This document shows positions 26,223 to 32,742 of a stretch of 64,000 nucleotides of DNA, in pieces. The stretch comes from Anaerolinea sp. (GTDB taxonomy: Bacteria > Chloroflexota > Anaerolineae > Promineifilales > Promineifilaceae). How positions within the stretch are numbered: the stretch's first letter is position 1; each line of letters opens with the position of its first letter. The stretch is from positions 1-64,000 of the forward strand of contig JACSRF010000180.1 of the NCBI GenBank assembly GCA_014879875.1, read 5' to 3'. A program made the position numbers and the translations under genes. The notes beneath the pieces were generated by a model. It did not search any database and was not told the origin of the DNA. It saw only the letters and a list, made by a program, of their open reading frames with translations.

Positions 26223-27123
26223 CGCTTTTATCCTGGCCTGCCCTCGCTGCCACACGCCCTTTCCGGCGACGGCCGGCCGCTTCCTTACCTGCGCCCATGA
26301 CGGCCTCGCCTTTAGCCAGGTAGACGGTATCTGGCGCTTTTTGCTGCCAGGGCGGGCAGCCCATCTGAGCCAGTTTATGCGCGAGTATGAGCAGGTGCGC
26401 CAGGCAGAAGGGTGGGGCAAGCCGGACGCTGCTTATTACCGCGCTTTGCCGTTTGCAGATCGCAGCGGCCGTTACCCGGCCATCTGGCATATCCGGGCGC
26501 AAAGTTACCGGGTTTTGCGAAAACGGTTGTTACCGCCAGAGACGCGGCCGCAGCGCATCCTCGATTTAGGGGCGGGTAATGGATGGTTGGCTAACCGGCT
26601 GTCTCAGGACGGTCACGCTGTCGCGGCAGTTGATTTAATGGTTAATGAGGCGGACGGCCTGGGCGCGTACCGCTATTATGACGCCTCTTTTCTCGCTCTC
26701 CAGGCCGAGTTTGATTATTTACCTCTGGCTGCGACCCAGGCCGACGTCGCCATTTTTAATGGGTCGTTTCATTACGCCACTGAGTATGAGCGGACGTTAC
26801 GAGAGGTGCTGCGGGCGCTGCGGCCACAAGGTCGTATCGTCATTATGGATTCACCCCTGTACCGAGATGGGCGCAGCGGACGGCAAATGGCGCTGGAGCG
26901 GCAGGAAATGTTTGCCACTCGCTATGGGTTTCGCGGCAATGCTTTGCCCCACGAGAATTATTTGACCTATGAACGATTGGCGCAGGTCGCGGACGCGCTG
27001 TCTTTACAATGGCAGGTCATCAAACCCTTTTATGGCTGGCGCTGGGCCATCCGCCCCTGGCTGGCTCGTCTGCGCGGTCACCGGGAACCGGCCAGCTTTT
27101 ATCTTATTGTGGGCCAGCGGTAA
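26209..27123 (+). CDS. Methyltransferase with N-terminal zinc ribbon (1)
   Basis: A 304-residue protein with an N-terminal zinc-ribbon-like head (ILACPRCHTPF, then FLTCAHDGLAF; about residues 5-35) and a class I methyltransferase domain with ILDLGAGNGWLANRLSQDG and VAAVDLMVNE. The same two-part plan, and the same GNGWL/WNGWL and DGLGA motifs, occur in the gene at 27099 on the opposite strand, so they are paralogues arranged tail to tail; their 3' ends overlap by 25 bases. The start taken is ATG at 26209; 26188 is an alternative. The substrate is unknown, with a glycan component likely from context. Confidence 0.83.
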   Translation: MPPADAFILACPRCHTPFPATAGRFLTCAHDGLAFSQVDGIWRFLLPGRAAHLSQFMREYEQVRQAEGWGKPDAAYYRALPFADRSGRYPAIWHIRAQSYRVLRKRLLPPETRPQRILDLGAGNGWLANRLSQDGHAVAAVDLMVNEADGLGAYRYYDASFLALQAEFDYLPLAATQADVAIFNGSFHYATEYERTLREVLRALRPQGRIVIMDSPLYRDGRSGRQMALERQEMFATRYGFRGNALPHENYLTYERLAQVADALSLQWQVIKPFYGWRWAIRPWLARLRGHREPASFYLIVGQR

Positions 27124-27968
27124 AGCCCGTAAAAGTAGCGGGGCGCGGCCTTGTTGAACCGGGATTTGAGGTTGGCCGGCCACAGTTGAGGATACGGCCG
27201 TAACTGCACCCCCGCTCTTTCTAACTGCCGCTTATCGTCAAAATCCAGATACCCCTTCATCGGCTTAAAGGGGGGGACGTCGTTTTGCTGCAAATATTGG
27301 TTGAATTCGGCAACCGCTTTGGCTTTGGCGGTAAAATCCTGGAAAAAGCTTAAACCGGTGAGGATGGTCAGGCCGCCAACGGCCGTTTTCTCGCCAGCGG
27401 CCAGGGCATAGGCGACCGGGTCGGCAAAGAACTGGAGGCAGCGGTTGAGGATAACGATGTCGAAGCGGTCATCCAATACCGATAAATCGGCCAGATCCAT
27501 CTGAATGGCCTGCCACCGGGCGCGATAATGCTTTTGGGCGCCCAGACCATCATATTCGTCAATGAAGTAGTCAACGGCCGTTACCTGATGACCTTGCCGC
27601 GTTAACCAGTTGCTCAACCAGCCATTCCAGGCCCCGATTTCTAATATCCGCTGGCTTTTACGCCTGGCGAGAAGCTGCTGCATGACGGCTATATCGTAGG
27701 TTCGTAGGCGCCATTCATGGTTGGTTTGCAATTCGGGAGTGAAAGGGAGCGTTTCATAAACGGCCGGCGCCAGTAATCGCTTCCCTTCCTTTTGTCTGAA
27801 CGGTTCAAACCCGGCCAAAAATGCTGCCAGCTTCCGCTGCAAGGCGGGGTCTAGTAAAACCAGCACATCCGCTTCATGACCAAACTCGTGGTGGTTGGCG
27901 CAGGTAAAGCCAGCGCCGACGGGGTACAGGGTGTGGGCGCAGGTAGGACAGCGTAAAGATAAATGCAT
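27099..27968 (-). CDS. Methyltransferase with N-terminal zinc ribbon (2)
   Basis: A 289-residue paralogue of the protein encoded at 26209. The head carries LRCPTCAHTLYPVGAGFTCANHHEF, then a class I SAM domain with ILEIGAWNGWLSNWLTRQG and VTAVDYFIDEYDGLGA, and VILNRCLQFF in place of an NPP-type motif. The track extends it to 28040, but ATG at 27968 gives a protein beginning MHLSLRCPTC that matches its paralogue. It is divergent from the sensor kinase, with a 214-base gap containing a 17-base element also seen at 31677. It ends inside the 3' end of the gene at 26209. Confidence 0.82.
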   Translation of the reverse strand: MHLSLRCPTCAHTLYPVGAGFTCANHHEFGHEADVLVLLDPALQRKLAAFLAGFEPFRQKEGKRLLAPAVYETLPFTPELQTNHEWRLRTYDIAVMQQLLARRKSQRILEIGAWNGWLSNWLTRQGHQVTAVDYFIDEYDGLGAQKHYRARWQAIQMDLADLSVLDDRFDIVILNRCLQFFADPVAYALAAGEKTAVGGLTILTGLSFFQDFTAKAKAVAEFNQYLQQNDVPPFKPMKGYLDFDDKRQLERAGVQLRPYPQLWPANLKSRFNKAAPRYFYGLYRWPTIR

Positions 27969-28040
27969 GGCAAATTTCACATTGCACCCAATAATAGAAT
28001 GGCGTTCTATTTTGTCAACCAGGGTAAACGTCAATCCCAT

Positions 28041-28057
28041 CCTACAACCAGGATAGA
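28041..28057 (+). promoter_or_regulatory. Element shared with 31677, possible regulator binding site
   Basis: CCTACAACCAGGATAGA lies in the divergent gap between a methyltransferase gene and the sensor kinase. The same sequence with one change (CCTACAACCAGGATATA) occurs at 31677, just before the two-gene membrane-protein unit. A 16-of-17 match placed upstream of two transcription units tied to one two-component system suggests a common operator, most simply for the response regulator at 30999. No promoter boxes were assigned. Confidence 0.45.
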
Positions 28058-28182
28058 GACGATCTTCCCACAGAAATAGGCCACCGTCCGATTTACAGCG
28101 CCGCGACTTCCATCTATACTAAGACAAATATGCAAGGTTTGCCGCGGGTACAAGCCATGTGCGCAAGCCAGGAAGGAATACC

Positions 28183-31002
28183 GTGAAAAAAAGGTTTGTT
28201 GGACTAGGTGAACTAATCAACCAACCCGCTTATGTGCGCAAGCATAGTTACAGCCAACGGTATGCGGCACGTTTCTATCGCCCTGTCATCGTCGTTATTA
28301 CATCGCTCATTATTTTGCTCACCGCTGCCCAATACCGGCAGCAAAACCCCATTATTCCCGCCACGCTCCTGCTCTTCCTCCTCCTCTACCTCGTCGTCTT
28401 TGGTTTGCGGATGCGCTTCCTCAAACCAGGGTACAATCTGGAGAAAAATTTTTATCGTCCTCGTCTACAATTTTTGCGCGGCCAGATTTCCTTGCTCGCC
28501 GTCGCGGCCCTGATGCTGCTCCCTGCCATCTATAACCTCACCGATCACAGCCTTTGGATTTTATTCGTGCTGGCAACACTGATCATCAGTGAACACAATT
28601 CGACCCGCGCCGTTCTCCTCACGCTCATCGAAGTCGCCCTGGTTATGCTGGGCATCGCCTATTTTGGCTGGGTGATCAATGGCGGCCGCGGCGCGCCTTT
28701 CCATACATTTCTGGCGGCGCGCTACGTCGTTCTTTACCCCATTCTCGGCATTTGGTTGGTTAATTTTGTCTTTCACTACCTGGTACGCAACATTCAAGGA
28801 CGGGACATTGCCTATGCCCAGCGTCAGGAGTGGCTAAACCTGATCAGCGAACAGTGGACCAATAAAGGCAACCCGCAGGAAAAACGGGCTGCGGTGCTGA
28901 AATGCGCCAATGAGTTAACCAACGCGCGCGCCCAGTTGTGGATTCCTCGCCTCAGCGATCAGGCATTGGTAGACGTGACGGGCAGTCCGGCGACGGCCGT
29001 TATCGAACAAATTGCCGCCGCCGCCAAGCCACACATCATCTGGCATCATGCCACAGATAACTTGCATATCCGGCCGCGCACTGAAGCCGTTTTACAGCAG
29101 GCAGCGCCCACAGAACCGGCGCAAATCGTGCTGCCGATCTATGGGCTGGACGATCCGGGGCGGCTGGTAGGCATTTTAGGACTGGTGTATCAAGTGGCGC
29201 AGCCGACGGATTATGAACTGTTCGGTGATTTTGAGCGGCTGCGCGACCTGGCAAATCATGCGCGACTGGTGCTCATTGTCAGTATGCAGCACGAGCAAGC
29301 GGAGCGGGAAAAACGACTGGCGGCGCGTTTGAACACAACGTTGAACCTGGAAGAAGTGGAACGGCGTATTGTTGATGACGTGATAGATGAATATGGGTTT
29401 GACTTTGCCACCGTGTCGCTGGTTGATCTAAATGAGAACCTGATACGCGTGGTAGCCGACCGGCAGGCTGGCTGGATGGATGATTCGGTGCATACGTTAA
29501 AATGCAACGACATCCAAAGCCTGACTGTCCGCCAGTGTAAAACGCAGCAGAATGACGGCCGTTTGACCGAAAACCTGGACCGGCGCATCTGGCGTAAATA
29601 CAAGCATCGCTTCGTCACCCGCATTTGGGTTCCCATTCCGAACCCGGCCGATCCGCTGCATACAGGGCAGGCAATCGGTACCATCGAAGCCGGTTTTCGT
29701 CACAGCCACCGGCAAGACGTGCCACTGCATTTACAACAGCAGTTAGAAAGTTACGCCATTTTAGCGGGTATTGCCCTGACCAATGCCCGCAACCAACGGG
29801 CGCAGGAAAAGTTGACCAAATCTTTGATTGCCCTGCACCAAATCAGCCGGGAAATTCGCATGTCCACGGCTTTTTACGAACCTTACCAGATGATTCAACT
29901 GGTGGGCGACCACGCACAAAAACTGCTGCGCGCCGACCTGGTGATGATCTACACCAGTGACGACCACGCGCAGCGGTTGAATCTGGCGTACACCGCTAAT
30001 CGGGAAGAGGCGATTCACGGTAACGCGGACCGGTTGAAGGTTTCGTTAGGTGAAGACAATTTCTTGACCCGGCTCTGCCACCACCAACAACCGTATTATG
30101 CGCCAACTGTGCGTGATGATCTGAATTTGATTTACATCAGCGAAAACGGCCGTTCCCCTAAAACGCGCACCTTTACCCAACGGCAAAACATCAAGTCCTT
30201 TGCCGGCGTCCCCCTGATCGGCAAAGGCAAGCGGTGTATCGGCCTGCTCTGTATCAACTATCGCCGCCGCAACCGCTTCGAGAAAGGGGAACGGCAAATC
30301 ATCGAACTGTTTGCCGAGCAGGCCACACTGGCTATCGAGGAAACGTACCAACACCGGCACGCGCGCACCATTGCCATTGCCCAGGAACGCAACAACCTGG
30401 GCACAGAACTGCATCATAATTTGTCACAACACTTACACGGTCTTTTTCTCAGCGTCAAAACAGCCAGAGTCTACGCCGAACGGCAAAACCTGGACAAAGC
30501 GCAAATGGCTCTGCAAAAAAGCGAACACATTGCTGAGTCCAGCCTCAACGCGATGGAGAACATGCTCACCCATTTACATGAACGCATTCAACCGGGGCTG
30601 GACTTTGAAGCGGAACTGCGCGGGCAAATTACGCAGGTTGAGAGCGTTTACACCACGAATATTCTCTTTTATGCGGACGTGCAGCAGCGCGTACCGGAAC
30701 AGATTCAATTTTATCTACTGCGTATTGCCTGGGAAGCATTGAACAACGCTGTGCGCCACGCGCGCTGTGAAAACATCCACATTCGTTACTACGCCGACCA
30801 TTCCCTGGCCGAATTGGTGATTCAAGATGATGGACTGGGCTTCGACGTGCAGAAAGCGCGGGAAACAGGGCGTTATGGCCTCAGCGCCATGAATTATTTT
30901 GCCCACCAACTCAACAGCCAATTAATCATCCAATCACAAATTGGGCGCGGAACCCACATCATGTTACAGGTGGAACTCCCGCCACAGGAGCAATACGAAT
31001 GA
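28183..31002 (+). CDS. Membrane sensor histidine kinase with GAF domains (NarX/LiaS type)
   Basis: A 939-residue kinase. Residues ~30-210 hold about six membrane helices. Two GAF-like sensory domains follow (about 305-475 and 505-700; second one ending SFAGVPLIGKGKRCIGLLCINYRRRNRF). The dimerisation/phosphoacceptor part is HisKA_3 type with ERNNLGTELHHNLSQHLHGL (about 750); the usual ELHD is ELHH here, an Asp-to-His change beside the phosphorylated His. The HATPase domain has AWEALNNAVRHA (N box) and IQDDGLGFD (G1). GTG at 28183 is preferred because GGAAGG lies seven bases before it. It is coupled by a four-base overlap to its response regulator. The signal sensed is unknown. Confidence 0.9.
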   Translation: MKKRFVGLGELINQPAYVRKHSYSQRYAARFYRPVIVVITSLIILLTAAQYRQQNPIIPATLLLFLLLYLVVFGLRMRFLKPGYNLEKNFYRPRLQFLRGQISLLAVAALMLLPAIYNLTDHSLWILFVLATLIISEHNSTRAVLLTLIEVALVMLGIAYFGWVINGGRGAPFHTFLAARYVVLYPILGIWLVNFVFHYLVRNIQGRDIAYAQRQEWLNLISEQWTNKGNPQEKRAAVLKCANELTNARAQLWIPRLSDQALVDVTGSPATAVIEQIAAAAKPHIIWHHATDNLHIRPRTEAVLQQAAPTEPAQIVLPIYGLDDPGRLVGILGLVYQVAQPTDYELFGDFERLRDLANHARLVLIVSMQHEQAEREKRLAARLNTTLNLEEVERRIVDDVIDEYGFDFATVSLVDLNENLIRVVADRQAGWMDDSVHTLKCNDIQSLTVRQCKTQQNDGRLTENLDRRIWRKYKHRFVTRIWVPIPNPADPLHTGQAIGTIEAGFRHSHRQDVPLHLQQQLESYAILAGIALTNARNQRAQEKLTKSLIALHQISREIRMSTAFYEPYQMIQLVGDHAQKLLRADLVMIYTSDDHAQRLNLAYTANREEAIHGNADRLKVSLGEDNFLTRLCHHQQPYYAPTVRDDLNLIYISENGRSPKTRTFTQRQNIKSFAGVPLIGKGKRCIGLLCINYRRRNRFEKGERQIIELFAEQATLAIEETYQHRHARTIAIAQERNNLGTELHHNLSQHLHGLFLSVKTARVYAERQNLDKAQMALQKSEHIAESSLNAMENMLTHLHERIQPGLDFEAELRGQITQVESVYTTNILFYADVQQRVPEQIQFYLLRIAWEALNNAVRHARCENIHIRYYADHSLAELVIQDDGLGFDVQKARETGRYGLSAMNYFAHQLNSQLIIQSQIGRGTHIMLQVELPPQEQYE

Positions 31003-31667
31003 CCTCACCCATCACCGTTCTTATTGTTGATGACCACCCGATTGCCGCCGATGGCTTGATCAGTTATCTAGAAACGGCCGATGACATCCTTGTGCGCTGC
31101 ACCTGCACTCGTGGCGAAGAGGTGAACGCCGCCATCATGGAGCACCATCCTGACGTGGTGCTGTTGGACCTGGAATTGGACGGCTCGCAGATCAGCGGGT
31201 TGGAAGTTGCCGCAATGATCCAACAATTATCCCCGCAAACCAAAATCCTGGTCATATCCGCTTTTGCCGATCAGCGGCATGTCCTGGATGCGCTTAACAT
31301 TGGCGTGGATGGCTACGTGCTGAAAACGTCGGCGCGCCTGGATTTGATTGAAGCGGTGCGGCGAGTGGCGGCCGGGCACAACATTTTCGATCCGCGCGTC
31401 ACTAAAATTTTGCAAATGTTCCTCAATAAGCCGGAAAGTTCCACGGCCGCCGATGATAATGGCGACGTGGAACTAACCGGCCGCGAATGGGACGTTCTCA
31501 CCTTGATCGCCGATAATTTGCCCAATGAGGAAATCGCCAACGAGTTGACCATTGCGGTGGGCACGGTCAAAACGCACGTCAGCAACATTTTGCGCAAATT
31601 GGGCCTGAAGAACCGCCAGGAAGCACAGGTCTGGTTTCACCTGAATCATCCCACACCCCCGATGTAA
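30999..31667 (+). CDS. NarL/LuxR-type response regulator
   Basis: A 222-residue two-component regulator. The receiver domain (1-125) has the acidic pair DD at 11-12, the phosphoacceptor Asp57 in VVLLDLELD and the conserved Lys in GYVLKTS. The C-terminal LuxR/GerE DNA-binding domain includes LTGREWDVLTLIADNLPNEEIA and VGTVKTHVSNILRKLGLKNR. Start and kinase stop overlap (ATGA), so kinase and regulator are made together. A perfect 10-bp inverted repeat lies nine bases after its stop and half of it recurs upstream of the kinase, which makes autoregulation plausible. Confidence 0.95.
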   Translation: MTSPITVLIVDDHPIAADGLISYLETADDILVRCTCTRGEEVNAAIMEHHPDVVLLDLELDGSQISGLEVAAMIQQLSPQTKILVISAFADQRHVLDALNIGVDGYVLKTSARLDLIEAVRRVAAGHNIFDPRVTKILQMFLNKPESSTAADDNGDVELTGREWDVLTLIADNLPNEEIANELTIAVGTVKTHVSNILRKLGLKNRQEAQVWFHLNHPTPPM

Positions 31668-31675
31668 CTACCCCC

Positions 31676-31708
31676 GCCTACAACCAGGATATAGTCAAGG
31701 TTGTAGGC
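31676..31708. promoter_or_regulatory. 10-bp inverted repeat GCCTACAACC/GGTTGTAGGC
   Basis: Perfect 10-base arms separated by 13 bases, nine bases after the response-regulator stop and 110 bases before the 38-residue gene. Its left half, with seven spacer bases, repeats the element at 28041. It could be an operator for a dimeric regulator, or a hairpin terminator for the kinase-regulator operon; no T-run follows, which weakens the terminator reading. Confidence 0.5.
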
Positions 31709-31817
31709 AAAATATATCCCCACAATCCATCCTCGACATCTGGCAACCATCCCCCTGATCCAGCATACTGTTGGCATACGTTAAGGTACGTGAACAATCT
31801 AAAAAGGAGGTTCAACA

Positions 31818-31934
31818 ATGGTCACGCTTCCGCTAACGACGCTCTTAACTGTTTTACTGGTCGCATTTGTTTTAGGGGTCGTCGCCTTGCCACTGCTGCT
31901 GGTTTACCTGGTCTGGAATGCAGACATCAAATAA
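31818..31934 (+). CDS. 38-residue single-span membrane peptide
   Basis: This ORF is too short for the track. ATG at 31818 is preceded by AAAAAGGAGG with seven bases of spacing, among the strongest ribosome-binding sites in the window. The product MVTLPLTTLLTVLLVAFVL...VYLVWNADIK is one hydrophobic helix of about 27 residues with a short polar tail, so it should insert in the cytoplasmic membrane. It follows the two-component genes and precedes the two-TM gene at 32050, which has an equally strong AAGGAGG. Small proteins next to two-component systems often modulate the sensor, but here that is only inferred. Confidence 0.72.
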   Translation: MVTLPLTTLLTVLLVAFVLGVVALPLLLVYLVWNADIK

Positions 31935-31970: not shown

Positions 31971-31999
31971 GAACGGCGTTCCTGTTGGGGACGCCGTTC
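31971..31999. repeat. Hairpin GAACGGCGT/ACGCCGTTC
   Basis: Nine-base perfect arms, 11 bases apart, in the 115-base gap between the 38-residue gene and the gene at 32050. It resembles the core of the 16-bp hairpin at 5382. It could cause partial termination or RNA processing between the two genes. No T-tract follows directly. Confidence 0.45.
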
Positions 32000-32049: not shown

Positions 32050-32742
32050 ATGCTTATTCAACAAAATAACGGACCACTCGTCATGCTGGCGCTGCTCATC
32101 CTGGCGCTGGCCGTTGCCCTGGGAATGCTTTGGGCAGGGACAGAAGCAGTAAACCCGACGGAAACAGCACAGCTTGCTAACATCAGAGGTACACAGGCGG
32201 CGATGGAGAATGACCAAAGGGTCGCCATGTGGGCGGCAACACAAACGCCCCTGGTGGCGATAGCCCAGGCAACGGCCGTTCCCATGCAGCTAACCGTCGC
32301 CCACGCCACCCACGAGGCCGTTATCGCACAAGCGACGCAAATGGCTGTCGCCAACGCAGCGCAGGCGACACGGCAGCGGCTAGAGAGTGAAGCAACCCGC
32401 ACCCAAATGATCCTGGACGCGCAAAGGCAGGAACAAGACAAAGGTACGCAACAGGCACAAACGGAAAACAGGCTGGCGCTGATCCTGGCGGCGGTCATTG
32501 GGGGAACGGTTCTGATCTGTGTCGGAGTCGGCGCATACGTCCTGACGCAGTGGCAAAAAGCGCAAACCGCTGCCCACGCTGCCCGCGCTTACGCCGAACA
32601 GCGCCGTCTCCTCATTGTGCAGGCCGCGTTGAAGGAACAGGAAGGGAGATGGAACGCAGCGGTCAAAGCGACAAACGGCCGTTCCCAACCCGCTCTCCAC
32701 CAACCTGATGAGGTCACACATCCCCAACGGCCGTCGGCATAA
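32050..32742 (+). CDS. Two-TM Ala/Thr/Gln-rich protein of unknown function
   Basis: A 230-residue protein with an N-terminal membrane helix (GPLVMLALLILALAVALGMLWAG), a long low-complexity helical middle rich in Ala, Thr and Gln (AQATAVPMQ, AVANAAQATRQRLE; about 35-140), a second helix (LALILAAVIGGTVLICVGVGAYVL; about 142-165) and a charged helical tail. The middle looks like an extracytoplasmic coiled coil or helical rod held by two membrane anchors. ATG at 32050 has AAGGAGG five bases before it; the track start at 32014 lacks such a site. It is the second gene after the two-component system and may belong to its regulon. No family is recognised. Confidence 0.72.
   Translation: MLIQQNNGPLVMLALLILALAVALGMLWAGTEAVNPTETAQLANIRGTQAAMENDQRVAMWAATQTPLVAIAQATAVPMQLTVAHATHEAVIAQATQMAVANAAQATRQRLESEATRTQMILDAQRQEQDKGTQQAQTENRLALILAAVIGGTVLICVGVGAYVLTQWQKAQTAAHAARAYAEQRRLLIVQAALKEQEGRWNAAVKATNGRSQPALHQPDEVTHPQRPSA

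Follow-up and report, generated by a model that had tools for sequence, protein, structure and literature searches.

Expression of a two-component system operon in the window, the whole 64-kb stretch of Chloroflexota DNA considered here, is probably governed by a palindrome, AAAT-N13-ATTTAC, located at 28074-28096 in the promoter of the sensor kinase gene and conserved in both sequence and position before orthologous operons. From the sequence comparisons described below, we consider it likely that this palindrome mediates autoregulation of the kinase-regulator pair, that an inverted repeat following the regulator gene forms a 3' hairpin, and that a 15-mer shared by the two intergenic regions flanking the operon is a separate matter. 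An initial guess about a repeated word gives way to a predicted operator that is specified in its bases and in its distance to the promoter; the regulator family concerned comes from a phylum with few cultured members. The same family is connected with a small membrane peptide and, in relatives, with vWA-tubulin genes that lie next to CRISPR genes.

Gene organization in the window

The sensor histidine kinase (28183-31002, + strand) comprises an N-terminal membrane part followed by GAF, HisKA_3-like and HATPase_c domains. As expected of the partner kinase of a NarL-type regulator, HATPase_c scores above its cut-off; the HisKA_3 match (E=1.5e-4) falls just under the curated cut-off (22.7 vs 24 bits), and H744 is conserved. 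The adjoining gene (30999-31667, + strand) encodes a NarL-type response regulator, with a receiver domain (Response_reg, E=2.7e-23) and a C-terminal GerE domain (E=6.1e-18). On the same strand follow a 38-amino acid hydrophobic membrane peptide (31818-31934) and a protein with two hydrophobic, transmembrane (TM)-like segments and a polar middle (32050-32742), where no vWA gene is present, in contrast to relatives.

Upstream, a divergent methyltransferase gene (27099-27971, - strand, start near 27968) shares an intergenic region with the kinase gene and has its own promoter there (TTGACA-16-TATTAT, minus strand, 28018-27991). A near-perfect palindrome, AATAGAATGGCGTTCTATT (27993-28011), which occurs once in the window, lies between the -35 and -10 hexamers of this promoter, where a repressor operator would be placed.

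The window is also rich in the palindrome ACGGCCGT, found in 98 places (e.g. 32271-32280) versus 1.4 expected from shuffles. Across the assembly, AACGGCCGTT occurs in 2,492 copies, as compared with 25 for a reversed control; within the family, some genera have thousands of copies and others almost none. We take it to resemble HIP1, the iterated palindrome of cyanobacteria; a literature search on AACGGCCGTT in Chloroflexota found nothing relevant.

Orthologous loci

Proteins related to the kinase over almost its full length were found in six genomes of other families in the same class (G400, G053, G133, G180, G231 and G225), and partial loci in two genomes of the same family (G030 and G009). 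A contig scan with the kinase returned one relative, cut inside the kinase by the contig end, and a genome of the same genus (G001) holds no ortholog of the kinase locus (best kinase match 1.7e-27). The orthologous loci bear out the initial annotation in its grouping of the kinase with the regulator and the membrane peptide, which together make up a conserved unit: as in the window, the regulator gene is followed by one for a small TM peptide in six other loci (G400, G053, G133, G180, G225 and G009).

Next in G009, G030, G400 and G225 comes a gene for a vWA membrane protein; a tubulin-like protein is encoded in G009, G225 and G180, and a Cas6 gene lies just before the kinase gene in G400, G180 and G231. 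The proteins that follow the kinase-regulator pair in G225 include membrane vWA and Tubulin_2 proteins, both with homologs in G009. Genes of the vWA, tubulin and Cas kinds are all missing beside the window locus, and a vWA profile search of the genome from which it derives, run with no positive control, found nothing. Kinase-regulator orthologs accompanied by a small TM peptide, a vWA protein and a tubulin-like protein were seen in loci L066, L069, L091, L092 and L093, several of which additionally carry Cas6, or a Cas1-like gene together with a reverse-transcriptase-like gene (both called by eye), forming a CRISPR-adjacent module.

A conserved palindrome at the kinase promoter

The candidate operator AAATAGGCCACCGTCCGATTTAC (28074-28096, + strand) begins 41 bp before the -10 hexamer (28115-28120) of the kinase promoter (TTTACA-17-TATACT, 28092-28120, + strand), and its right half overlaps the -35 hexamer. 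The palindrome was spotted by eye before testing. An unbiased scan of kinase upstream regions for all 4-mer dyads with gaps of 0-20 identified AAAT-N13-ATTT as the only dyad common to three independent genus groups (the window; G053 with G133; G180), while 60 shuffled sets never yielded a dyad common to more than two. Related, more degenerate sites precede the kinases of G400 and G225, the kinase promoter of G231 contains a weak site, and no strong site was found in G009 or G030, whose kinase promoters lie outside the contigs examined. All nine sites, that of G231 included, have a -10-like hexamer at a distance of 41 or 42 bp, counted from where the site begins.

A weight matrix built without the window ranked 28072-28096 first among about 128,000 window positions, with the other-strand reading of the site second. 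Leave-one-genus-out tests, which include the -10 hexamer and reuse the alignment derived from the palindrome as spotted by eye, ranked every withheld site first or second within its 10-14-kb locus. The control set comprised 66 other kinase/regulator loci (254 kb), in which three scores exceeded 15 and a single one exceeded 16. The latter, in L086 (genus g53), marks the promoter of a kinase more distantly related to that of the window, with a -10 hexamer at 42 bp, and the same arrangement is recognizable by reading in its sister locus L082. The unplanned recovery of the L086 site is the strongest single check on the model; like the sequence conservation and the fixed spacing, the presence of the site in one more genus, outside the model, is a direct observation. 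The exact operator consensus occurs at one place in its own genome, the kinase promoter, and since this consensus was drawn partly from the window site, only its uniqueness counts. No relevant description of a match to the AAAT-N13-ATTTAC operator in Chloroflexota was found in the literature searched.

Sites of the same type also precede the peptide genes of G400 and G225. The initial annotation had linked kinase and peptide through a shared element, and this link proves right in kind, because in these two relatives one element, the palindrome, stands before both genes, but the element is not the 15-mer that had been proposed. Control of kinase and peptide is probably common to one element in this family, and the 15-mer is probably not that element. 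At the peptide promoter of the window itself, a weak, degenerate operator candidate (31723-31745, + strand) lies 41 bp before the hexamer CATACT (31764); at rank 71 in the window by the operator model, it is no more than suggestive.

A 15-mer shared by two intergenic regions

The word CCTACAACCAGGATA occurs exactly at 28041-28055 and 31677-31691, in both cases on the + strand and in an intergenic region. Described originally as a 17-bp element at 28041 and 31677, it is exact and correctly placed, but is only 15 bp long, because the letters flanking the two copies differ (T versus G on the left side, G versus T on the right side). Copy 1 lies between the divergent methyltransferase promoter and the kinase promoter, 23 bp upstream of the -35 hexamer of the former and 74 bp upstream of the -10 hexamer of the latter. 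Copy 2 is located directly 3' of the response-regulator gene (stop codon 31665-31667) and also 5' of the peptide gene (31818); as the initial annotation held, it overlaps a perfect 10-bp inverted repeat (31676-31708), with its first nine bases in the left arm and the remainder in the loop. The genome-wide search that had been suggested found these two exact copies and no copy with one mismatch in the 6.9-Mb assembly, rather than the many promoter-unrelated copies that would have spoken against an element of this kind.

None of 5000 dinucleotide shuffles produced a word of at least 15 bp common to the two intergenic regions that flank the operon, and an alignment-type shuffle test of the same regions likewise gave 0 of 6000. 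The window contains about twenty other exact 15-mer repeats unrelated to CCTACAACCAGGATA (a count that leaves out the ACGGCCGT palindrome and a repeat protein after 59 kb), which weakens the shuffle evidence through selection; as exact repeats of this length are frequent in a stretch of 64 kb, the case rests on both copies flanking one operon. The sharing probably, but not certainly, exceeds chance.

Conservation of the kind expected for an operator was not observed: CCTACAACCAGGATA is absent upstream of the kinase and after the regulator in all orthologous loci examined, which come from more distant genomes, with best matches at five or more mismatches, and is not retained before orthologous kinase and peptide genes. 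Both copies score near background under the operator weight matrix. Overlapping copy 2, CTACCCCCGCCTACAA (31668-31683) is identical at 15 of 16 bases to CTACCCCCGCGTACAA, which precedes the vWA gene of G030 (L070, about 2604-2619, after the regulator gene) in surroundings otherwise unalike; this likeness was reached by 9 of 6000 shuffles, and nine comparisons were made. On account of this match, 31668-31683 may have a minor regulatory role.

A hairpin following the regulator gene

The inverted repeat GCCTACAACC-AGGATATAGTCAA-GGTTGTAGGC (31676-31708, + strand), with a 13-nucleotide loop (AGGATATAGTCAA), lies 9 nucleotides past the last base of the regulator stop codon. Inverted repeats of at least 10 bp were reached in 3 of 2000 dinucleotide shuffles. 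The predicted hairpin (-18.5 kcal/mol) places a stable stem directly after the stop codon of the operon, and the best local fold after the window regulator reaches -20.0, versus -12.2 in shuffles (sd 2.9). Within the first 130 nucleotides past this gene, the best local folds clearly surpass shuffles in stability in seven of nine loci, the window included and G009 and G133 being the exceptions; in G231, G225 and G053 the stem is followed by a T-run, as in a classical terminator.

Because a hairpin follows the regulator in seven of nine loci, an operon 3' end is a likelier role for the inverted repeat than an operator, and an operon-end hairpin is probably the most economical reading of the sequence. 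Transcript 3' ends at 31700 are what the hairpin position predicts. The window hairpin is followed by AAAATATATCC rather than a T-run, and it was not listed by a terminator scan, which permits loops of up to 8 nucleotides. The reading as an operon-end hairpin leaves unexplained the six bases of the shared word that fall inside the loop. A strong hairpin after the peptide gene (GAACGGCGTTCCTGTTGGGGACGCCGTTC, 31971-31999) likewise lacks a T-run, and hairpin ends of this kind may be usual in this genome.

The stable fold of the inverted repeat would also suit a structured RNA of a known kind or a repeat dispersed in the genome, but the sequence is unique in the genome at up to three mismatches and has no match in Rfam, which makes either identity highly improbable. 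A dispersed repeat family is refuted as far as exact or near-exact copies in the assembly are concerned.

Discussion

What the 15-mer represents is best weighed against the conserved palindrome. Were it the binding site of the regulator, present as one half at the kinase promoter and as a complete inverted site ahead of the peptide gene, one could understand why the genome contains just two exact copies, each flanking the kinase-regulator operon, why their sharing is improbable by shuffling, and why they lie at distances that fit upstream sites (74 bp from the kinase -10 hexamer, 87 bp from CATACT). The word is missing from every orthologous locus, however, it is near background under the operator model, the palindrome conserved at the kinase promoter is another sequence, and the inverted repeat is positioned like a 3' hairpin; we therefore regard this explanation as unlikely. 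Scarcely less doubtful, though slightly better placed, is binding by a different transcription factor, one that in this species alone would link expression of the kinase to that of the peptide. The intergenic location and identical orientation of both copies would be consistent with such a factor, as would a likeness that runs beyond the hairpin arm into the loop (AGGATA), where a terminator has no need of it; yet the lack of further copies with zero or one mismatch would imply a regulon of two sites, and no conservation was seen.

The remaining alternative, to which we give an even chance, is that the repeat is functionless, a chance match or small local duplication of which one copy became, or lay in, a terminator stem. 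Such an origin accords with the roughly twenty further exact 15-mer repeats in the window and with the lack of conservation in orthologous loci, but has to contend with the 5000 and 6000 shuffles in which these two intergenic regions never came to share 15 bp. Overall, the 15-mer is probably a separate sequence, private to this genome, and the lack of a regulatory role, or a role as the site of some other factor, is likelier than a role as the main operator.

Autoregulation through the palindrome remains our preferred explanation: the kinase-regulator pair would control its own promoter through 28074-28096, to which the phosphorylated NarL-type regulator would most likely bind as a dimer. Since the right half of the palindrome (ATTTAC) overlaps the -35 hexamer, a dimer on the site would be in direct contact with RNA polymerase, resulting in class II activation or possibly in repression. 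NarL-family behavior is established, and on this basis we favor positive autoregulation by the phosphorylated regulator. The same palindrome in G400 and G225 would co-regulate the small membrane peptide downstream. The hairpin at 31676-31708 most likely ends or protects the kinase-regulator transcript, termination being presumed from its position.

More tentatively, and with somewhat less than even confidence, we suggest that a two-component system found throughout this class of Chloroflexota, and equipped with a palindromic operator of its own, controls a tiny membrane peptide as well as, in relatives, a vWA-tubulin module beside CRISPR genes. The window would then represent a reduced version that has kept the peptide as its main partner.

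Several features of this system have counterparts elsewhere. The combination of a HisKA_3-like kinase and a REC-GerE regulator with a palindromic site beside the promoter of their operon is shared with autoregulated NarL/LuxR-type (GerE) systems with operators overlapping the -35 hexamer, from which the present operator differs in its sequence, AAAT-N13-ATTTAC, and in its fixed distance of 41-42 bp to the -10 hexamer. The window hairpin resembles intrinsic terminators in its stability and its location 9 nucleotides past the stop codon at the operon end, a resemblance shared by orthologous loci, but without a T-run it falls outside the classical definition. Compared as classes rather than system by system, the vWA and Tubulin_2 proteins of G225 and G009 and the Cas6 genes of G400, G180 and G231 recall the vWA/tubulin conflict systems (PMC7159879) and the CRISPR-linked vWA/tubulin systems (PMC10910872), from which the window locus is distinguished by its lack of vWA, tubulin and Cas genes.
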